In this document: in pieces, positions 2,021-24,392 of the stretch
How positions within the stretch are numbered: position 1 is the stretch's first letter
Layout of the letters: each line of letters opens with the position of its first letter
Source: a virus
Length of the DNA: 24,910 bases
Reading direction: 5' to 3' (one strand)
Virus record (IMG/VR): IMGVR_UViG_3300028388_000582
Location: 1-24,910 of that record
The notes under the pieces: model-generated
The model's input: the letters and a program-made list of their open reading frames with translations, nothing else
What the model was told of the DNA's origin: nothing
Databases searched by the model: none
Made by a program: the position numbers and the translations under genes

Positions 2021-2742
2021 AGTAATTCCATAAATGCCGCCCAGTCCAGGGGCATTTCTGGTGGTAAACCGAACCGATTTTTCGCGACCCAGGCCGGGCG
2101 TTCCTCGGTATACATGACCCGCTCGCCGGAACCAGTGCCTCGGGTTCTCACCCGACCGCGATCCTCGGTTTTGATGGTTTGATAAACCTGGTTGGCGAAA
2201 AATATCGCGTCGGAATGCTCCGATACCAGGTCCGCCGCCTTCGCCTGCAGTTTGATAACGTAGCGATCGAATGCCTCGGTATCCGGCGCCTCGAATCGCT
2301 TTACCGCCGAATGACCGATCAGGATCGTCGCCATCCGCTTTTCAGAGCGCAGGAAATTAACCCGGTCGAGAAATTCCCGCCAATACTTCAGGGCTTCGAC
2401 ATAACCGCGCCCGTAGCCTGGCTGTTCGATTGACTGCCATTTGTTCGCCTCGCAAGTGTGCGCCCAGATCAACGGTTCCAGCCAGTCCAGGGAATCGACG
2501 ACTAGTGTCCGATATTCGTGTTCGCCAGAAATCAGCGAATCCAGGGCCGCGCGCGCCTCCGCGTAACTTTTCGGCGTCGGGAATGCGTCGGCTTCAATGG
2601 TTCCCAGGCCGTCCTCGATCGGTAAAAAAATCGGCTTCGGTGCTGCAGCGCCGAATGTTGTTTTTCCGACTCCCGCCGGTCCGTAGATTAAAACCCTGGG
2701 CGGTTGCTTTTTGCCGCCCTTGCTGATTGTTGTTAGGTCCAT
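2011..2742 (-). CDS. Sak4-like RecA-fold recombination ATPase (AAA_24)
   Basis: The 243-residue protein is a single-domain RecA-like ATPase of the Sak4/AAA_24 type, which phages use for single-strand annealing or strand exchange with an SSB partner. Walker A is GPAGVGKTT (21-29) and Walker B is TLVVDSLDW (79-87, Asp83). A later GHSAVKRF segment fits the motif after Walker B. Its length is typical for the family. The TAA of the resolvase-like gene directly abuts its ATG (TAAATG), and GGGAGA upstream is the ribosome binding site. The SSB-like gene follows, and the YqaJ exonuclease is nearby on the other strand. Exonuclease, annealase and SSB are a recurrent phage recombination set. A related ATPase with another role is possible. 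Confidence 0.85.
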   Translation of the reverse strand: MDLTTISKGGKKQPPRVLIYGPAGVGKTTFGAAAPKPIFLPIEDGLGTIEADAFPTPKSYAEARAALDSLISGEHEYRTLVVDSLDWLEPLIWAHTCEANKWQSIEQPGYGRGYVEALKYWREFLDRVNFLRSEKRMATILIGHSAVKRFEAPDTEAFDRYVIKLQAKAADLVSEHSDAIFFANQVYQTIKTEDRGRVRTRGTGSGERVMYTEERPAWVAKNRFGLPPEMPLDWAAFMELLRG

Positions 2743-3132
2743 TTATAGGTTCTCCCGTATCAGTCCACAAAAAAGCTCCAGCGAAATTTCGCTAGTGCAT
2801 CGAAAATCCTCTAGGTCATACAGTTCCAAGTGCAGAGGAAACGCCACCAAAACCCGCCAGGGCGCCCTATCAGCGCGGAAACAGACCGCTGGCATCTTGT
2901 CTACCCGGCGCGCTTGCTTCACCGCCTGGGACCAGAAATTGGCTTTGTCGGCGGTAGCGATCGTCGCGTATCGCTTGCATTCGATCGCCCAGTGATCCAG
3001 CCCGATCAGGTCATGCCCGCCGCCGAACGATTGCGCCAGATTGCGCTCCAGGCGAATCCCGGTTTCGTCCTCGATGGCGCGGATCAGTTCGCGTTCCCCG
3101 CTGGCGCCCTTGGTCCTACTACTCGCTCCCAT
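2743..3132 (-). CDS. PDDEXK nuclease, Holliday-junction-resolvase-like
   Basis: The 129-residue protein has a basic start, a RELIRAIEDETG helix with an early Glu, then GGGHDLIGLDHWAIECKRY, the D...ExK signature of PDDEXK nucleases related to archaeal Hjc and phage resolvase-like endonucleases. It probably cleaves branched DNA made during replication or recombination before packaging. Length is normal for the family. The start overlaps the membrane-protein gene by 14 bp, and the stop abuts the Sak4-like ATG, so it belongs to the recombination set. The nuclease fold is well supported. Substrate specificity for Holliday junctions is inferred from context and family. Confidence 0.75.
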   Translation of the reverse strand: MGASSRTKGASGERELIRAIEDETGIRLERNLAQSFGGGHDLIGLDHWAIECKRYATIATADKANFWSQAVKQARRVDKMPAVCFRADRAPWRVLVAFPLHLELYDLEDFRCTSEISLELFCGLIRENL

Positions 3133-3364
3133 TGTTCGCCGCCCTTTCTTCCTTCTTTTTGATCCAGGCGCGCCGCTGCTTTTCCTTCCGCCAGGCTTCG
3201 GGAATGTTCGCAGCGATCCCCAGCAAAAAAGCGCCCCATAGTGGCGCCAAAACCCACCACCAGGACCATTCTATGAATCCCGCCAGCTTTAGGCCGACGA
3301 ACATGAGCAAAAAATTGTCGACTAACCGCCCCACGCGTTCACTCGCTACACTCGTTTCGCTCAC
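3119..3364 (-). CDS. Small membrane protein of unknown function
   Basis: The 81-residue protein has two adjacent hydrophobic segments, about residues 15-30 (FLLMFVGLKLAGFIEW region) and 35-53 (WWWVLAPLWGAFLLGIAANI), then a strongly basic cytosolic-looking tail rich in Lys, Arg and Glu. The start is GTG, chosen because GGAGGT lies 8 nt upstream. It overlaps the HTH gene upstream by 26 bp and the nuclease gene downstream by 14 bp. Similar tiny membrane proteins are common in early phage operons, and their roles are mostly unknown. A superinfection or membrane-anchoring function is possible, but nothing in the sequence shows it. Confidence 0.65.
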   Translation of the reverse strand: MSETSVASERVGRLVDNFLLMFVGLKLAGFIEWSWWWVLAPLWGAFLLGIAANIPEAWRKEKQRRAWIKKKEERAANNGSE

Positions 3365-3509
3365 GAATTAACACCTCCGCCTGCATGATTCGTAACGCGG
3401 GCACCTCACCCTTTCGTCGCCAGTAGTAGATCGTCTGCCGGGTAACACCCAGCGCGCGCGCTGTTTGCGCGATCCCGCCGAATTCCCGAATAATTTCCTC
3501 AAGTGTCAT
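3339..3509 (-). CDS. Small helix-turn-helix DNA-binding regulator (Cro/YdaS-like)
   Basis: From the ATG at 3509 the protein has 56 residues. The core, GGIAQTARALGVTRQTIYYWRRKG, is a clear helix-turn-helix with the recognition helix TRQTIYYW. This is the layout of Cro, YdaS and excisionase-like phage regulators. A GTG at 3533 would add eight residues, but the ATG has GGGAACG upstream and is preferred. It is the first gene of the leftward replication set and faces the rightward YqaJ gene across a short region holding an inverted TTTGACA pair. It therefore probably controls one or both transcripts. Repressor, antirepressor and antitoxin-like roles cannot be told apart from sequence. Confidence 0.75.
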   Translation of the reverse strand: MTLEEIIREFGGIAQTARALGVTRQTIYYWRRKGEVPALRIMQAEVLIRERNECSE

Positions 3510-3525
3510 TTTGCGTTCCCAATAG

Positions 3526-3586
3526 TTTGACACCCGAACCCTAAACGCTTAACTTTCACCTGTCAAATTATTATACACCCCATGAG
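3526..3586. promoter_or_regulatory. Divergent control region with inverted TTTGACA boxes
   Basis: TTTGACA (3526-3532) and TGTCAAA (3561-3567) form an inverted repeat whose arms contain consensus TTGACA -35 boxes on each strand. Weak -10 candidates lie 17 bp away: TAACTT at 3550-3555 for the plus strand and TAGGGT at 3543-3538 for the minus strand. A better TATTAT occurs at 3569-3574 without a good -35. GAGGAA at 3583-3588 is the ribosome binding site of the YqaJ gene. The two promoters would overlap and exclude each other. The arms may also be operator half-sites for the HTH protein. Confidence 0.4.
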
Positions 3587-3595
3587 GAAATCGAA

Positions 3596-4528
3596 ATGGT
3601 AGGCAAACTGTCAGACGATCGCAAAATGTCCGGCTCGCGAATTCCGGTCCTTTATTCCTGGAAACATGGCGTCCCTCATCCCTGGTCCACGCCGAACGAC
3701 GAACTGCGAAAGTCGATCCAGGCAACACTGGGCGAATATGAGTCTTTCGACATCGGCGAACCGGGCATCGTCGGGAACCTCCTAGAACCTGCCCTGGTCG
3801 CCAGTGTATGCCAGGAACTCGGCTTGCCAGAACCCGAACTGACTCCACCTGTATACAAACGCGACACATTCGAGGCCAGCTGCGATGGCTTGGTCCAGGT
3901 CGACCAGCCGGTGACGGTTCGCAGCGCGGGCATTGTCGACGTGCAGGGTGGCGAACTCACCCTGTCCGGGCCGGTTCCGATCGAATGCAAATGTACTACT
4001 GCGCCACCGACGGACGACATCCCGCTTTATCGGGGACCGATCCAGCTTCAAGCGCAAATGCTCGCCACCGGCGCGAACGCTGGAATCCTTATAACGCTGC
4101 ATCGGGGCATCGAACGCCGTATTCACGTCATTCCGGCGAACCCGGTTATTCAGTCCGAAATTAACCAGATATGCGCGGAATTTCAGGAACGGGTCATCAA
4201 TCGCCGGTGGTATGCCCCGGTTAGCGTCGACGACGCCGTGATTCCGCCAGCATCGAACGAAAAGGATTCGGTCGACGTGCCGGACCTGGTCGACGACATC
4301 GACGCCCTGGAACGCTTACGGGGCGAACGCCGCGACCTGGACGACCAGATCGCCGCCCTGGAACTGAAAATCATGGATGCCCTGGGCGATGCCCAGGTCG
4401 GAATCGCGGGTCCGTACCAGGTCGAATGGCCGGTGCGCCACTATAAAGCGCAGCCGGAAAAGGTAACACCCGCCAAACCCGAGCGAACAATCCGTTTGAA
4501 AACATTGAAAATTCGCGCTATGGTTTGA
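3596..4528 (+). CDS. YqaJ-family lambda-exonuclease-like recombination nuclease
   Basis: The 310-residue protein is a YqaJ viral recombinase, a PDDEXK 5'-3' exonuclease that makes ssDNA for annealing by a partner. Motifs in order are GNLLEP (Glu64), ASCDGLV (Asp97), PIECK (Glu130, Lys132) and GPIQLQAQM (Gln150 to Gln154), matching the YqaJ/lambda Exo active site. A Gly-Ala segment with ITLHRGIERRIHVI follows. Residues about 230-265 look coiled-coil and the C-terminus is basic. The ATG has GAGGAA about 7 nt upstream. It is the only plus-strand gene in the window and has its own terminator. Its likely partners, the Sak4-like ATPase and the SSB-like protein, are transcribed the other way, so timing or dosage may be set separately. 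Confidence 0.9.
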   Translation: MVGKLSDDRKMSGSRIPVLYSWKHGVPHPWSTPNDELRKSIQATLGEYESFDIGEPGIVGNLLEPALVASVCQELGLPEPELTPPVYKRDTFEASCDGLVQVDQPVTVRSAGIVDVQGGELTLSGPVPIECKCTTAPPTDDIPLYRGPIQLQAQMLATGANAGILITLHRGIERRIHVIPANPVIQSEINQICAEFQERVINRRWYAPVSVDDAVIPPASNEKDSVDVPDLVDDIDALERLRGERRDLDDQIAALELKIMDALGDAQVGIAGPYQVEWPVRHYKAQPEKVTPAKPERTIRLKTLKIRAMV

Positions 4529-4531
4529 ATC

Positions 4532-4569
4532 GACCCGTCATGGGGTCACACTCCTAAAGGTCTACCTTT
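4532..4569 (+). promoter_or_regulatory. Two small hairpins ahead of the YqaJ terminator
   Basis: GACCC/GGGTC (4532-4547, 6-nt loop) and AAAGG/CCTTT (4556-4569, TCTA loop) are two perfect 5-bp stems stacked just before the terminator stem. They could stabilise the 3' end of the message or be processing sites. Role unknown. Confidence 0.35.
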
Positions 4570-4570
4570 C

Positions 4571-4596
4571 GCCCCGTCTAGCGCCGGGGCTTTTTT
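4571..4596 (+). terminator. Rho-independent terminator of the YqaJ gene
   Basis: GCCCCG (4571-4576) pairs with CGGGGC (4585-4590) around an 8-nt loop and is followed by TTTTTT. The U tract follows only in the plus direction, so it ends rightward transcription. It lies directly between the convergent YqaJ and FlbD-like genes, and its end overlaps the stop of the latter by two bases. Confidence 0.85.
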
Positions 4597-4804
4597 ATTC
4601 TTCCTCGTCCGCGCCTTCCCAGCTTTCCGCCGCGACGATCATTTCCAAGATTTCCAGGGGTGATTTGTTGATAGAAATTCCCTCCGGAAAAAGTCCGCAA
4701 TAAATCATCGAACATCCATCGCGACCCTTTTCTGGGGTGATGGCCAAAATTTCACTAGTTCGAATGAACAATGAACCCATGTCGGTTTCCAGCCTAATCA
4801 TCAT
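4595..4804 (-). CDS. Small FlbD-like protein of unknown function
   Basis: The 69-residue protein starts with MMIRLET, where either Met could be used, and has a beta-rich core. The layout of a short start, a strand pair around SEILAITPE, a glycine-containing turn, then INKSPLEILEMI resembles the FlbD-like small-protein family; this is a weak resemblance only. The C-terminus is acidic and ends EGADEEE. Its ATG lies inside the last codons of the HNH endonuclease gene, an 11-bp overlap, so the two are co-translated. The function is not recognisable. It is the last gene of the leftward late/lysis set before the convergent YqaJ terminator. Confidence 0.6.
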   Translation of the reverse strand: MMIRLETDMGSLFIRTSEILAITPEKGRDGCSMIYCGLFPEGISINKSPLEILEMIVAAESWEGADEEE

Positions 4805-18034: not shown

Positions 18035-19294
18035 TTAGGCCGTGGTAACGTCTTGGATCGCTGCGAACGACTCGGCATGACGAACCGCCACATCGATGTC
18101 CTGGTACATGGCAACGCGAACGGCGCCAGTAGTAGACAGCGAATAGGGGTCGATCAACACATCGAGACCGCCGAACATACCAATCATAAGATCGGCAAAG
18201 TTTCCAAACACTACCGCAGAACAAACGCCAGAGCTTGTTCCCTTGTCCAAATCGGACGGAACCAGGGTGGTGCTTGCTACGTTGTAGCCCAACAGGGTGT
18301 TGGAGTCGTTCAGGATGAAGTTACCTTCGACGCCGCTAGCCTGGCGCGGAGTTTGACGCATTGCAGCGACGACCTTGGGGTTCGTCAAATACGCCAGGTT
18401 TCCAGCCAGTGCATTGTCGATTGCGACTTCACGCTCAAGAGAAACTAGCGATGCAAAAGTGATTGCTCCGCCATTGGTGCCCTGGGCAACACTGCCGATG
18501 CCATTGGTTCCCAGGATGCCGGTGGGTTCGTTTGAACCGCCGCCCTGGATAGCCACCTGGTCGATCTTCGCAGCAAATTGACGGGTCATGTCGTCGCGGA
18601 TGATTTGCTCGACGCTGGGGTCGCTCTGCATCATCAGCTTTCGACCGATGTCGACGTGCTGAACCAGGGTTTTGGGTGACATGGTTACCTGGCGGAATGA
18701 AGGCGCGCCTTCGGTGCCGGGTGCGTTGTTTTCTGCTACGAATCCAACAGCAGTTTTCGCGTTCAGTGCTGGAATGGCAACGTCGCCCTTTAAGCCCTGC
18801 ATCATGCGAGCGCCCAGGCCAGAAATGACCAGGTTAGCGCGCAGCGCATCGATGAACTCACCGCCCAGGTGATCGGTTGGAACCAGGTTCGAACCGTTCG
18901 CGGGTGATGCGGTCGTGATGTCACGCTTGAAAATGTTGTTGGGAACGTAGAAACCACGCGGTTCCTTGCCGTAACGCTTCGCCAATTCCTCGGACACTTC
19001 ACGCTCAAGGCCATCAAAACGACCAGCAGCCGCGCTTTGGATAGCCTTGGTCAGCGAGTATGCGCGCTGTTCTTTGGCCGTCATGTCGACTTCTGCGATG
19101 TCCAGGGGCTTGTCGGCGATCTTGTCCAACAATGCGCCACGGAACTGGGCAAGGTTCATCCCCTGGCGAATAGCTTCATCAGCAAAACCGCGCTGATTGT
19201 GCTTGGCCGCCAGGCCCATGATTTCGTTAATTTCTTTGGACCGTTCAGCCGCAGCTTCAGCGCGCACCTGGTCCAGATCGATTTGCTGTTCCAT
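18035..19294 (-). CDS. Internal in-frame scaffold-major capsid product (nested start)
   Basis: An ATG at 19294 (Met438 of the fused ORF) has a perfect AGGAGG at 19308-19303, 8 nt upstream, inside the long gene. This would make a 419-residue product: a helical scaffold/delta-like part (about 1-120 of this product, MEQQIDLDQVRAEAAAE onward) and an HK97-fold major capsid protein. The capsid part shows LVPTDHLGGEFIDALR, AVGFVAENNAPGTEG, MSPKTLVQHVDIGRKLMMQ and the NEPTGILG loop, all typical of this fold. Free capsid subunits are needed in large excess over protease, which this start would provide. The start is inferred from sequence. Confidence 0.8.
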   Translation of the reverse strand: MEQQIDLDQVRAEAAAERSKEINEIMGLAAKHNQRGFADEAIRQGMNLAQFRGALLDKIADKPLDIAEVDMTAKEQRAYSLTKAIQSAAAGRFDGLEREVSEELAKRYGKEPRGFYVPNNIFKRDITTASPANGSNLVPTDHLGGEFIDALRANLVISGLGARMMQGLKGDVAIPALNAKTAVGFVAENNAPGTEGAPSFRQVTMSPKTLVQHVDIGRKLMMQSDPSVEQIIRDDMTRQFAAKIDQVAIQGGGSNEPTGILGTNGIGSVAQGTNGGAITFASLVSLEREVAIDNALAGNLAYLTNPKVVAAMRQTPRQASGVEGNFILNDSNTLLGYNVASTTLVPSDLDKGTSSGVCSAVVFGNFADLMIGMFGGLDVLIDPYSLSTTGAVRVAMYQDIDVAVRHAESFAAIQDVTTA

Positions 19295-20605
19295 TTTTGG
19301 AACCTCCTTTTCGACGGGTTTAATAGTTGCGTTGTCTGGAACTTCGACCGAACGCCCGACACCGACTGACTGGTCGGCGGGCAGGCTTACGATTGAGACC
19401 TCCATAATTTCGGCGTCTGTCACCCGGAACAAATCGCTTTGATTTGTGTCGCGCTCCATCTTCCGAACTTTGTAGCCGATCGAGACATTTGATCGAATGC
19501 CATCGACTACATCCTGGTAGAACTCGGTGGCAAGCGCGCTTCGACTGAAGCGAACCGTCGCCCGGAGTCGCCGGGCCGATCCATCGAGACTAACAGATTC
19601 GACAACCCCGATTTGCCGCTCGGGGTCATGGTCCGCCAATAGTGGCGCATGGCCGGACCGTAAAAAATCCAGGTTCAGCGTTTCTTCGCTGTGAACGATA
19701 ACCTCACGACCGAACGAACGCTCGACTGGGGTTTCGCTGGAAATCGACATTTGAACGCGACGGTCGTCGACGCTCTCGATTTCGGAATGCTCCATCCGGT
19801 GGACCACTTCGGCTTTGCTGAACCGCTCCTCGGTCGTTTCTTCGACTTCGGGTTCGTCGTCGTGTTCTTCGTCATACTTCGAAAACGTGATGACGATTTC
19901 GTCATCCGTTTCAGTGATGCCTTTAATGTGTCGCTTCACTTTACGTTCCTCGCTTGCTTGTTCGAACTTTACCGGTTCGAACTCGTGTTCGTCCAGCCAT
20001 TCGCGCGCTTGGTCTGCAGTATAACGCGCCGCGTCAAATCGGATGCTCTGAATTTCCGACTGGCGCTCGTCGCCATCCGTATAAATTCCATAAATAAAAT
20101 CGATTCCTGAACCGCCGGCGTCGACTTCCCTTCGGAATTCGTCATATTTTGCCGGGTCATTAATCCGCGCCGCGTGTTCGTTCGGATACGGTCGCACCTC
20201 TTGGCGTTCGTCGCGCTTGCTGATTAGCTGGCGAATGACCTGTTTCATTCGGGCTTCGCCCAGGTTGCCGATCACGCCCCACTTAATTTGTGCAATGATG
20301 CCCGCCACGTTCCCCAGGTTGGGTTCCAGCTCGTCGTCCTGGAACTGCGCGCCGTCGTCAAAATGTCTCGCTGCCCAGGCTTCGCGTTCCTTGATCCAAT
20401 CCAAAACCTCGCCGGCTTCGTCCCCATCCCTGGCGCGTTCCCATAACCGGAACGCTTCATTCCCGCGAATGTTGCCACCCGTCGCCCAGATTTCCGGATG
20501 CTCATCCGCCACCATGTCGGCGAATTCTCGGTCGAACTGTGGGTATTCTGAATTCCGCAGCGAAATTTTCAGGTCGTCGCCTTCCTTTGGGAAATTAGTC
20601 GCCAT
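18035..20605 (-). CDS. Fused prohead protease, scaffold and major capsid protein with two N-terminal domains
   Basis: The 856-residue protein holds five parts. Residues 1-130 form a domain with DEHPEIWATGGNIRGNEAF and KEREAWAARHF. Residues 138-220 form a second domain with RPYPNEHAARINDPAKY and IQSIRFDAARYT. An acidic linker covers 230-280. Residues about 285-420 form an HK97-type (S78) protease with ADHD (His326), SNVSIGY (Ser375) and IMEVSIVSLPADQSVGVG. Residues 438-560 are scaffold-like and 560-856 are capsid. The ATG lies 11 bp inside the portal gene end, with GAGG upstream. Protease-capsid fusions are known, and the protease would free the capsid part. A nested start is listed separately. 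Confidence 0.9.
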   Translation of the reverse strand: MATNFPKEGDDLKISLRNSEYPQFDREFADMVADEHPEIWATGGNIRGNEAFRLWERARDGDEAGEVLDWIKEREAWAARHFDDGAQFQDDELEPNLGNVAGIIAQIKWGVIGNLGEARMKQVIRQLISKRDERQEVRPYPNEHAARINDPAKYDEFRREVDAGGSGIDFIYGIYTDGDERQSEIQSIRFDAARYTADQAREWLDEHEFEPVKFEQASEERKVKRHIKGITETDDEIVITFSKYDEEHDDEPEVEETTEERFSKAEVVHRMEHSEIESVDDRRVQMSISSETPVERSFGREVIVHSEETLNLDFLRSGHAPLLADHDPERQIGVVESVSLDGSARRLRATVRFSRSALATEFYQDVVDGIRSNVSIGYKVRKMERDTNQSDLFRVTDAEIMEVSIVSLPADQSVGVGRSVEVPDNATIKPVEKEVPKMEQQIDLDQVRAEAAAERSKEINEIMGLAAKHNQRGFADEAIRQGMNLAQFRGALLDKIADKPLDIAEVDMTAKEQRAYSLTKAIQSAAAGRFDGLEREVSEELAKRYGKEPRGFYVPNNIFKRDITTASPANGSNLVPTDHLGGEFIDALRANLVISGLGARMMQGLKGDVAIPALNAKTAVGFVAENNAPGTEGAPSFRQVTMSPKTLVQHVDIGRKLMMQSDPSVEQIIRDDMTRQFAAKIDQVAIQGGGSNEPTGILGTNGIGSVAQGTNGGAITFASLVSLEREVAIDNALAGNLAYLTNPKVVAAMRQTPRQASGVEGNFILNDSNTLLGYNVASTTLVPSDLDKGTSSGVCSAVVFGNFADLMIGMFGGLDVLIDPYSLSTTGAVRVAMYQDIDVAVRHAESFAAIQDVTTA

Positions 20606-22094
20606 CGGTCATAGCCTCGAATGCTTCGCCGGTTTGCAGATTGATTTTTCCCGGTCCATAGGGTGATTGACCACCGCCGAACGGTTCGAACGCCAGTTTC
20701 AGGCCGAACTGTTCGGCCAGTTGCTTGTCCCTGGCGACCTGGGCGAATACTTCCTCGACGTCGCGACCGTAGACGTTCGCCACGTCCTGCAGGGAAATCA
20801 AACCATTCTGCAGGGCGACGACGTGCGCCTGGATTTCCTTCTGTGGATCGACCCACTGGAACCCACGCGGTCGGAACTGCGACGCGCCGGCGAACTTGTC
20901 GAACTTGTCGATCGGTAAATTCACGGAACCCAGCAGAAACGCATTCGCCAGCCAGCGTTCATACACTGGCAAAACAAAATGCTGGATCAAATAGTGCTGC
21001 AGGGTGCGATAAAAGTCTCGATCCTCGATGCTGCCCTGGCGGATGCTGGAATAACTGGTCTGGGTCAGGTCATTCGCCAGGCTGTGATAACTCACGCCCA
21101 GGCCGGACGCGATCCCGCGCAGGATCGACTTTTCGAAATCGCCGAACGCGCTGGTCGGGTGACTTGGGTCCCAGGGTTGGAATTCGACGTCCTTTGGCAG
21201 TTGAAAAAATGTGCCTGGTTCGGCGTCGGTGATCGGAACGACCGAATCCTCGACGTCGTCACCCATAAACCCTTCGCCGGACCGGGAAACGAAAAAACCC
21301 ATTTTGCTGGCCGCCGTTCGTGCCGCCACCAGTTCCGCTTCCCGGTAACCATGTAGCATTTTTAGCGACTTAATCGCCGTCGACATCCAAGGAACGCCCC
21401 TGGTTTGCTGCGCGCGGTCGGGTAGATATAGGTGGATCAAATTGTCCGCCTCGACCCGCTGCGTTCGTCGACTGTACTGGGTGAACTGATAATCGCCAGG
21501 GTGTTCGCTCAAAATATGATAAGCCACCGGGCGCCGATACTGGTCGAACTCGACGCCCATTCGGATTTCGTTCCCGTTGGGCGCGCGCTCGTTCTTTTCT
21601 TCGTCGATCACGTCGGGTTCGAGGAACTGCAGGGCGAACCGGTCCTTGTTCCCCGGATAGTTGACGATCCGAATCAGGGCTTCGCCATCCCGCGCCATCG
21701 ATTCGACCGCCATCGCCTGGGCGTCGACGAACGACATTTTCCCGTCGACTGTGCAGTTCCCGACCTTCGCCCAGCGATTCCATTCGCGCTCGATTTGCTG
21801 GTTCCCGATGGTGTCCAGGGTTCCGTCGGTGTTTAGCGCCTTAACCTGTAGGGTGGCGCCACGCTCGCCGACGACGTTCGTTTTTACCAGGTGAATATAT
21901 CGCCGCGCGTATTCATTGTTTCTCGCCAGGTCGCGACATCGATCGCGCAGGGTTTTAAGGGAATAACGAATTTCCGAATCCGCCGATCGCTGCGACGCCA
22001 TAAAATCAGCAAAAAGGCGCCCACCCTGGGCGCCGTCAAATCGGCGTTTTTGGACCGGCTTTTGCTTCCGGCGGAATATGTCGAACATTCCCAT
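20595..22094 (-). CDS. Portal protein, lambda family
   Basis: The 499-residue protein is a lambda gpB-type portal (Phage_portal_2). It starts basic (MGMFDIFRRKQKPVQKRRFD), then has LKTLRDRCRDLARNNEYARRYIHLVKTNVVGERG, the helix-rich family opening, DGEALIRIV, LQFLEPDVIDEE, GVEFDQYRRPVAYHI, LIHLYLPDRAQQTRGVPWM and FQWVDPQKEIQAHV near the end. It forms the dodecamer ring at one capsid vertex that terminase and the head-tail proteins bind. Length is typical. The ATG overlaps the stop of the previous gene (TAATG), and its stop overlaps the start of the protease-capsid gene by 11 bp. Confidence 0.95.
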   Translation of the reverse strand: MGMFDIFRRKQKPVQKRRFDGAQGGRLFADFMASQRSADSEIRYSLKTLRDRCRDLARNNEYARRYIHLVKTNVVGERGATLQVKALNTDGTLDTIGNQQIEREWNRWAKVGNCTVDGKMSFVDAQAMAVESMARDGEALIRIVNYPGNKDRFALQFLEPDVIDEEKNERAPNGNEIRMGVEFDQYRRPVAYHILSEHPGDYQFTQYSRRTQRVEADNLIHLYLPDRAQQTRGVPWMSTAIKSLKMLHGYREAELVAARTAASKMGFFVSRSGEGFMGDDVEDSVVPITDAEPGTFFQLPKDVEFQPWDPSHPTSAFGDFEKSILRGIASGLGVSYHSLANDLTQTSYSSIRQGSIEDRDFYRTLQHYLIQHFVLPVYERWLANAFLLGSVNLPIDKFDKFAGASQFRPRGFQWVDPQKEIQAHVVALQNGLISLQDVANVYGRDVEEVFAQVARDKQLAEQFGLKLAFEPFGGGQSPYGPGKINLQTGEAFEAMTDGD

Positions 22095-22556: not shown

Positions 22557-24392
22557 TTACCTCCAATTGTTCACGAACCCGCCCGGCTTTCTTTGTTTGG
22601 CGGGCCGCGCCTGGCGTTCAGGTTTGGATTTGTCACCTTCTGGCCGCGATTCTGCCGCCTTGTCCGCTAGTATATTGACATTCACGCCGGAAATATATAG
22701 CGCCGCCATAGCATAACATCGAACGTCTAGGGCTTCATTCCTTCGGCGTTTCTTGACCCATTGGCGTTTTGCATGGCCGCGAACATATTTCGTCACCAGC
22801 TGTTCGGACGTTAGCTGCAGAAAATACTCGGGGTCTCGATCCGCTGGGAAATGACAATACCCTGGACCGGGTTCGGTGATCTTCAGTCGACCATATACCA
22901 GTTCCTTCGCCGTATCGGAACCGATGGGAAACAGCCGAACTTTGCCGATGTTGTTTTTGCTTGGGCGCCCGACCAGGGGGCGACCCTCGCCACCGACGCC
23001 CTTGATACCAAACACCCGCCGCGACTCGCGTCCCTTGATGTAACGATAGGTTGCCTGGGTATGGTGTCCGCCGGTGTCGATACACGTCGCGCGAACGCCC
23101 AGTTCCCGCCCGTCGGCGGTTGTGTAGGATGCAAAAAGGATTGCGTCCAGGTCAGCCCATACCTGGGGTGAACTGGGATCGCCGGGTAACGTCATATAGT
23201 CCAGCGACCAGGTTTCTTCGTCCCGACCGACGCCGACCAGCTCCACCTCCAGGCGATCGTCCTGGACGTCGACGCCAGCGACGACGGTTATAACCTGGTC
23301 GGGCCATTCCTCGCCCCAGTCTTCCGCCCGGTGCTGCAGCATATCCTGGTCGACGCCCTCGCCGGATTCCTCCCAGGTTTCCGCCAGGGAAACATTAACG
23401 AATGTCTGCAGGTCGCCGCTGCGCTTCTTTTCCAGAAACGATTGGGCAATGTCGCCCAGCTTTCGGAAACACGAATACAGTTCGTTCAGGTGATAGCTTG
23501 CGTGGCCCTTGAATGGCCGGCTTGATTGCCAGCGACCGCGCCGGATCGCTGCGATTCGCTCGCCATCGGTCCACATAACGCCGCAGCCATTGCAAGCATA
23601 TTTCGCGTTTTCCGGGTGTCCCTCGGTCCAGATCACGTTCGACCAGGTCATTTCCTGGTATGTCTCGCAGCTTGGGCATGGAACATGGAACCGCCGCTGG
23701 TCGCCCTGTTCGTAGGCGTCCTCGATCCAGCTGGCGTTTTTGATCGTCGGTGTGCTGATTTCCAGTAGCTTGCGCCGGTCGCCAAATGTGGCCGCTCGCT
23801 GCCATAACAGCGACACCGGATGCCCTTCCTGGCTTTTGTCGTAACCGTCGGTTTCGTCGCAGACCACGAAAGGCGCCGAGCGCCCGCGCATCGTCTTGGG
23901 TGATCCCGACCAGGAAAACATCAGGAACCCGCCAGGGTAGGATTTCATCCGCTGATTATTGACGCCATCGCGTCCCCTGGGCTTCGCGATCAATTCCTGC
24001 AGTGTTTCGTTTGTTTCGACCAAGGGATTGAATTTCGTTTCCAGCCAGGTCGCCAGGTCGCCCTGGGATGGCTGCATCATTATCTGGCTTTGTGGGTCTT
24101 GCGCGATTTTGTAAGCCTGGGCGCATAACGCCAGCATGGTTTTGCCGACCTGGGCCGACCACATTAACGTGATTCGACTGCATTCCGGGTTCGCCGTCAT
24201 GTCCAGGGGTTCGCGCTGGTAGGGCGCATGGTCAAACCGAATCAGTCCCGGAACTGCGTTTCCGATCGGAACCCGGACGTTTTGTTCCGACCATTCGCTG
24301 GGTTTCAGGTTTGGTGGTGGCTTCAGGTGACGCGCCGCTTTATGGACCGTCTTTCGGATTCCTTCCCAGTTGTCGAAATCAATCGTCGTCAT
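22557..24392 (-). CDS. terL: Terminase large subunit, lambda GpA-like
   Basis: The 611-residue protein packages DNA into proheads. Residues 76-87 (LMWSAQVGKTML, Gly83, Lys84, Thr85) hold the ATPase Walker A, VVCDE (176-180) the Walker B and FVVCDETDGYD the DEAD-like block. C239/C242 and C267/C270 make a zinc-knuckle pair as in GpA proteins. The nuclease part starts at AGVDVQDDRLEVELVG (Asp375) and includes CIDTGGHHT (Asp439). The length is near the 641 residues of lambda gpA. The ATG is inside the last codons of the small subunit, a 14-bp overlap. GpA-type enzymes usually cut at cos sites, so cohesive-end packaging is likely. Confidence 0.95.
   Translation of the reverse strand: MTTIDFDNWEGIRKTVHKAARHLKPPPNLKPSEWSEQNVRVPIGNAVPGLIRFDHAPYQREPLDMTANPECSRITLMWSAQVGKTMLALCAQAYKIAQDPQSQIMMQPSQGDLATWLETKFNPLVETNETLQELIAKPRGRDGVNNQRMKSYPGGFLMFSWSGSPKTMRGRSAPFVVCDETDGYDKSQEGHPVSLLWQRAATFGDRRKLLEISTPTIKNASWIEDAYEQGDQRRFHVPCPSCETYQEMTWSNVIWTEGHPENAKYACNGCGVMWTDGERIAAIRRGRWQSSRPFKGHASYHLNELYSCFRKLGDIAQSFLEKKRSGDLQTFVNVSLAETWEESGEGVDQDMLQHRAEDWGEEWPDQVITVVAGVDVQDDRLEVELVGVGRDEETWSLDYMTLPGDPSSPQVWADLDAILFASYTTADGRELGVRATCIDTGGHHTQATYRYIKGRESRRVFGIKGVGGEGRPLVGRPSKNNIGKVRLFPIGSDTAKELVYGRLKITEPGPGYCHFPADRDPEYFLQLTSEQLVTKYVRGHAKRQWVKKRRRNEALDVRCYAMAALYISGVNVNILADKAAESRPEGDKSKPERQARPAKQRKPGGFVNNWR

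Follow-up and report, generated by a model that had tools for sequence, protein, structure and literature searches.

The gene considered here lies on the minus strand of a 24,910-nt viral DNA stretch (IMG/VR record IMGVR_UViG_3300028388_000582, positions 1 to 24,910, analysed as a whole and hereafter referred to as the window), where its upstream neighbours are the genes for a terminase large subunit (22557-24392) and then a lambda-type portal protein (20595-22094). It consists of one uninterrupted open reading frame (ORF) in which a prohead protease precedes a scaffold-like delta domain and an HK97-fold major capsid protein (Table 1). The first 11 nt of this fused ORF are also the last 11 nt of the portal gene, and translation of the two is therefore likely to be coupled; the ATG of the fused ORF itself is preceded by a weak Shine-Dalgarno (SD) sequence. 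A preliminary description of this DNA had labelled the gene a protease-scaffold-capsid fusion, and the label is right, as a Peptidase_S78 match and a Phage_capsid match flank a helical, delta-like part that spans aa 444-545 in the structure model.

Table 1. Features of the fused gene and of its candidate internal start in the window.
Feature	Position	Strand	Details	Basis or remarks
Fused ORF	18035..20605	minus	856 aa, 94.4 kDa	N-terminal domain, S78 prohead protease, linker, delta (scaffold) domain, HK97-fold major capsid protein
SD of the fused ORF (GAGG)	20615..20618	minus	Weak; precedes ATG at 20605	Anti-SD energy -5.9
N-terminal domain	20198..20605	minus	aa ~1-136, helical, confidently folded	Structure model; no Pfam match
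Variable segment	19802..20197	minus	aa 137-267	
Prohead protease domain	19358..19804	minus	aa 268-416	Pfam Peptidase_S78 (318-413), alignment and structure model
Disordered linker	19277..19381	minus	aa 409-443, pLDDT ~31	Sequence and length variable among relatives
Delta (scaffold) region	18896..19294	minus	aa 438-570, predicted to be cleaved off at maturation	Structure model and R4C chain start
Mature HK97-fold capsid region	18035..18895	minus	aa 571-856 and stop codon	Pfam Phage_capsid (571-851)
Internal SD (AGGAGG)	19303..19308	minus	8-nt spacer to internal ATG	
Internal start codon (candidate)	19292..19294	minus	ATG, Met438	
Nested frame from Met438	18035..19294	minus	419 aa, 44.4 kDa, delta and capsid	HK97 gp5-like; putative product

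The assignment of both enzymatic and structural parts relies on several profiles. On the protease side, PF04586 (S78) matches with 45.1 bits for a cut-off of 21, which identifies an S78 prohead protease, while TIGR01543 scores 41.2, under its cut-off of 59. Three residues of this domain, H326, S375, and E402, are invariant across the aligned relatives and are candidates for its catalytic triad. On the capsid side, PF05065 and TIGR01554 reach 124 and 118.6 bits (cut-offs of 24.2 and 27.5, respectively), as expected of an HK97-fold capsid protein. The phrog_617 profile (major head protein) covers aa 278-854 of the fusion over essentially its full length (profile positions 22-625 of 626, E 2e-136). 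In contrast, the NF045541 model for protease/major capsid protein fusions gives 146.3 bits for a cut-off of 525, which places the gene outside that model.

The preliminary description had mentioned neither the N-terminal domain nor the variable segment that follows it. Many Salinibacter ruber phages have the same N-terminal domain (about 51% identity) within a hypothetical protein of 839 aa, and the C-terminal part of that protein resembles, by eye, a head-protease region; this domain may be one that recurrently accompanies head proteases. The segment that links it to the protease (aa 137-267) is poorly ordered and its length varies strongly among relatives, whose stop-to-stop ORFs range from about 790 to 1180 aa; this variation suggests insertions of extra material. 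In the Roseobacter phage CRP-823, the annotation gives the N-terminal part an ORF of its own, which overlaps the following one (1789-2505 versus 2465-4717), while it is fused in CRP-821, and the separation reflects either a true split or a sequencing frameshift.

The structure of the fusion was modelled with AlphaFold from a 26-row alignment made of viral contigs only (mean pLDDT 69.7). Foldseek ranks the roseophage R4C capsid (8gta) first among PDB matches, and the gene for this capsid is likewise a fusion that belongs to the family. The modelled R4C chain starts at about residue 362 of 629, corresponding to aa 571 in the window's protein and lying far downstream of the R4C linker Met189, so that the protease, the linker, and the delta domain are all absent from the mature model.

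It is just after the protease domain that an internal start may lie. The preliminary description had, without giving a strand, pointed to an AGGAGG placed 8 nt upstream of an in-frame Met438, and both elements are confirmed on the minus strand (coding-strand sequence over the site: GTCGAAAAGGAGGTTCCAAAAATGGAACAG). Met438 belongs to the flexible linker and stands six residues ahead of the first delta helix, which begins at residue 444 in the structure model. As had also been stated, most genes of the window have weaker sites: the SD of Met438 is the strongest of 31 candidate starts, with an anti-SD duplex energy of -12.8. Of the 30 candidate gene starts, the runner-up reaches -11.0 and the start of the fused ORF itself -5.9. 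The Met438 site also outscores all of the 845 other codon positions tested within the fused ORF. The hexamer alone means little, since AGGAGG is not a rare word in the window (5 occurrences, 7.6 expected), and its rarity was therefore ruled out as an argument. Similarly, unusually open RNA was not found at Met438, with 36% of the ORF positions being less structured, so that accessibility adds no support. Finally, synonymous recoding of the window sequence alone indicates that its SD is not exceptional given the encoded amino acids (p 0.19). The case for this site thus rests on a family-wide test.

The preliminary description had put forward comparison with related phages as a check and had named a lack of conservation among the refuting outcomes. 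That outcome did not occur: an in-frame ATG stands in the linker of each relative analysed, and most of these ATGs follow an SD-like sequence. The 80 IMG/VR relatives (42-95% identity) are all single-frame fusions with an ATG at or beside the aligned position, and the residues flanking this ATG differ among them. Named phages with a linker ATG include CRP-811, CRP-821, CRP-823, R4C, RcRhea, VP882, phiHAP-1, ECO1230-10, Persinger, Mica, Alexa, PPpW-3, and FoX3 (codon 190 in RcRhea, codon 216 in ECO1230-10), and the in-frame linker ATG is present in 172 of the 172 viral sequences that cover the junction. Scanning GTDB brought in 80 prophage loci whose labels span many groups of Proteobacteria, Desulfobacterota, Nitrospirota, Campylobacterota, Planctomycetota, Cyanobacteria, and others; many of the loci come from metagenome bins, so that the host labels are uncertain; all matches listed carry the in-frame linker ATG, nearly always with an SD of the GGA/GAGG type upstream. 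In all named records examined, the gene is annotated as a single CDS, with no internal start or nested CDS. Among the relatives fetched, none has separate protease and capsid genes with the capsid starting at the same Met. Marinobacter AS1 was considered as a split counterpart and rejected: its genes are split, but the peptidase is unrelated.

The SD is not equally strong throughout the family. It is weak at the internal site in FoX3 and seven other relatives, and cyanophages S-CBS3 and S-LBS1, as well as one Synechococcus contig, have kept the linker ATG with no SD. This pattern is the one expected if SD use is weaker in those hosts and follows the host, while the ATG is the conserved function. 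It also bears on the idea that the role of the internal SD is to make ribosomes pause between the protease and the delta-capsid part, which would aid folding, rather than to initiate translation. It has been proposed, though this is disputed, that SD-like elements inside genes slow ribosomes down, and the site does fall exactly at a domain boundary. However, a pause would not need a start codon, and yet the linker ATG is constant, usually lies 5-11 nt past the SD core, and survives SD loss in the cyanobacterial members, all of which makes a mere pausing role most improbable.

Controls for selection on the site were run on two non-redundant sets of relatives (n = 53, with less than 70% identity, and n = 75). 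When the gene is scanned in sliding segments, an ATG with an SD of energy -5 or lower is present within the 44 residues around Met438 in 81% and 88% of the sequences, respectively, versus 2-30% and 4-23% for other, non-overlapping segments of the fusion. Synonymous recoding according to each gene's codon usage yields mean energies of -3.75 and -4.17, compared with observed values of -6.60 and -5.90 (z of -9.3 and -6.7), and none of 1000 recodings was as strong in either set. Permutation of the linker codons gives even weaker means of -1.6 and -1.8 (z of -15.9 and -14.0; 0 of 1000); as the sequences share ancestry, these z-scores are not to be equated with independent-sample probabilities. Furthermore, the SD is associated with in-frame linker ATGs (46 of 70 and 70 of 100 in the two sets) and much less with out-of-frame ones (6 of 64 and 12 of 104). 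The 53 sequences of the first set display 45 different pentapeptides ahead of the Met, and the SD core occurs in all three codon phases, indicating that it is the DNA that is conserved, and not the peptide. The column-wise SD energy was discarded as a test by itself, because SD-like means arise from conserved protein motifs as well, upstream of residues 115 and 692; for this reason, coupling to an ATG was included, together with controls that take the amino acids into account. Shared inheritance alone would be a poor explanation for the site, given identities below 70% and changing peptides. These comparative data thus demonstrate nucleotide-level selection that maintains the candidate internal site across the family.

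The same controls bear on the alternative that the full-length fusion is the sole product and that the protease frees itself by cleavage, with the SD and Met438 being by-products of a charged linker rich in Lys and Glu or of a conserved cleavage motif. The codons of such a linker are able to mimic AAGGAG, and SD-like sequences devoid of a start do arise from conserved motifs elsewhere, for instance before residue 692. In addition, the annotation shows one protein in every record, and the N-terminal part would be lost by cleavage anyway. Nevertheless, an effect of composition is excluded by both synonymous recoding and codon permutation, no conserved peptide motif precedes the Met, and the coupling of the SD to ATGs is restricted to those in frame. 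Exclusive synthesis of the full-length protein is hence very unlikely. In our view, the fusion is with high probability read in two ways, conserved internal initiation giving a 419-aa scaffold-capsid protein beside the protease-bearing fusion; the family-wide comparison thereby supports the proposal of the preliminary description that two products come from one frame.

According to this two-product reading, ribosomes starting at 20605, probably in a portal-coupled manner, would yield the 856-aa protease-bearing subunit, while ribosome entry at the internal AGGAGG/ATG (19308/19294) would yield a 419-aa delta-capsid protein, the equivalent of HK97 gp5. The long and short forms, which share their scaffold and capsid parts, would then co-assemble. 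The short form would be dominant, and some long subunits would bring the protease inside the prohead via their N-terminal half. With the long form being rare, the prohead would thereby receive few copies of the protease, which would then cut away everything upstream of about residue 571.

How the two products are balanced is a separate question. In the window, the internal SD is much stronger than that of the own start and so favours the short form, but the same relation holds for no more than 14 of the 22 named phages; the ratio is thus not set by the SD alone and must also depend on portal coupling and ribosome traffic. An estimate of packing provides another constraint. The R4C head has a T=7 architecture with 415 capsid proteins (PMC10276861). 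Assuming this T number and an HK97-like inner radius of 19-23 nm, protein would take up 64-113% of the volume inside the T=7 shell if all 415 subunits were full-length, compared with 15-26% for the delta domains alone. To the extent that the assumed radii and T number are valid, this argues for long subunits being a minority, and makes the 415 long subunits implied by exclusive full-length synthesis implausible. One could also envisage that internal initiation is real and that the long form is nonetheless as abundant as the short one or more so, the internal start then tuning the ratio or adding late scaffold-capsid protein. The own-start SD is indeed equal or stronger in 8 of the 22 named phages, but the internal SD is far stronger in the window, and the packing estimate, given the bulk of the 50-kDa N-terminal half, favours long subunits being in the minority, so that an abundant long form is unlikely.

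Other families of protease-capsid fusions display comparable sites. A second S78 fusion family, whose capsid part corresponds to the Phage_capsid_4 model and which includes LPPA33, RcDormio, and Stenotrophomonas S1, has a junction ATG with an SD in 92% of 25 non-redundant members, and a similar Met lies close by in two members that are further removed (Met197 in Vibrio 1.050.O and Met204 in Pd_22F). More remote S78 fusions agree with this, with Met174 in a Helicobacter prophage (-11.6) and Met180 in Escherichia phage DCP80 (-6.2). DCP80 (PQ671644) is classed in the Tevenvirinae, yet its fusion-gene region does not look T4-like; its classification or its assembly may be wrong.

The ClpP fusions of mEp460 and F10 match CLP_protease. 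Here, a GAGGA...ATG arrangement lies where the protease domain ends in 15 of 15 non-redundant members; since the peptide EExxxKMP is conserved as well and the set is narrow, this is no more than suggestive of an internal start in ClpP-capsid fusions. Considering these families together, we lean towards a hidden internal capsid start being a general rule of phage protease-capsid fusions, which would apply to at least two S78 families and probably to ClpP-type fusions of the Gifsy-2 kind too. A large class of phages would in that case make the main shell protein from an unannotated nested start, and the ratio between the two starts would set the copy number of the protease.

In the open-access literature, no description of an internal start in protease-capsid fusions was found, absence there being no proof of novelty. 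The fusion of protease and capsid has been called common among small-genome siphoviruses (PMC9671004), in some phages the capsid gene is reported to be longer and to include a prohead protease domain (PMC11409702), and the paper on the R4C structure does not contain the word "protease" (PMC10276861). Fused genes pose a puzzle, as HK97-type heads need about 415 shell subunits and only some protease, with little room for 415 proteases. A conserved internal start would answer this copy-number puzzle by a logic resembling that of Gag/Gag-Pol or UL26/UL26.5, in which a minority of structural subunits bear the protease, the means being ribosome entry in the present case. If this is true, many phage and prophage records annotate a wrong N-terminus for the major precursor capsid protein. 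The reading can be tested in culturable phages, including R4C, whose mature head structure is solved.

Several known systems offer parallels to this organization. The preliminary description had drawn a comparison with lambda C/Nu3, which is apt, and the herpesvirus UL26/UL26.5 and HK97 gp4/gp5 pairs are equally close. As in HK97, an S78-type protease is followed by a delta domain and an HK97-fold capsid, and the putative nested product of the window is laid out like gp5. However, gp4 and gp5 are encoded by two separate genes, whereas the window has a single frame with no intervening stop, so that the protease is covalently attached to the capsid subunit. The fusions grouped under NF045541 and phrog_617 have the same domain order, but are described as one product. 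The Gifsy-2 gene, which Effantin et al. are said to have presented in 2010 as a tripartite protease-scaffold-capsid gene, likewise combines the three parts in one gene, reportedly with a ClpP-type protease and with no internal start being described; the window differs from this type in that its protease matches Peptidase_S78 and not CLP_protease.

In lambda C/Nu3, as well as in Mu I/Z, an in-frame internal start lies within the head-protease gene, and the nested product shares the C-terminus of the longer one. The window similarly has a conserved in-frame site inside the protease gene, at which conservation points to initiation. Nu3 is a scaffold only, while the nested frame of the window is more than a scaffold, as it holds the whole capsid domain. 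Herpesvirus UL26/UL26.5 also combines a long protease-scaffold protein with a nested, in-frame scaffold protein, the two of which co-assemble, and this is paralleled in the window by the long protease form and the nested short form, with the co-assembly proposed here. In herpesviruses, in contrast, the short form is without a capsid domain and is made from its own, separate nested transcript. The gene of the window thus works like C/Nu3 and UL26/UL26.5 but is a member of neither, because its predicted nested product includes the capsid protein itself.
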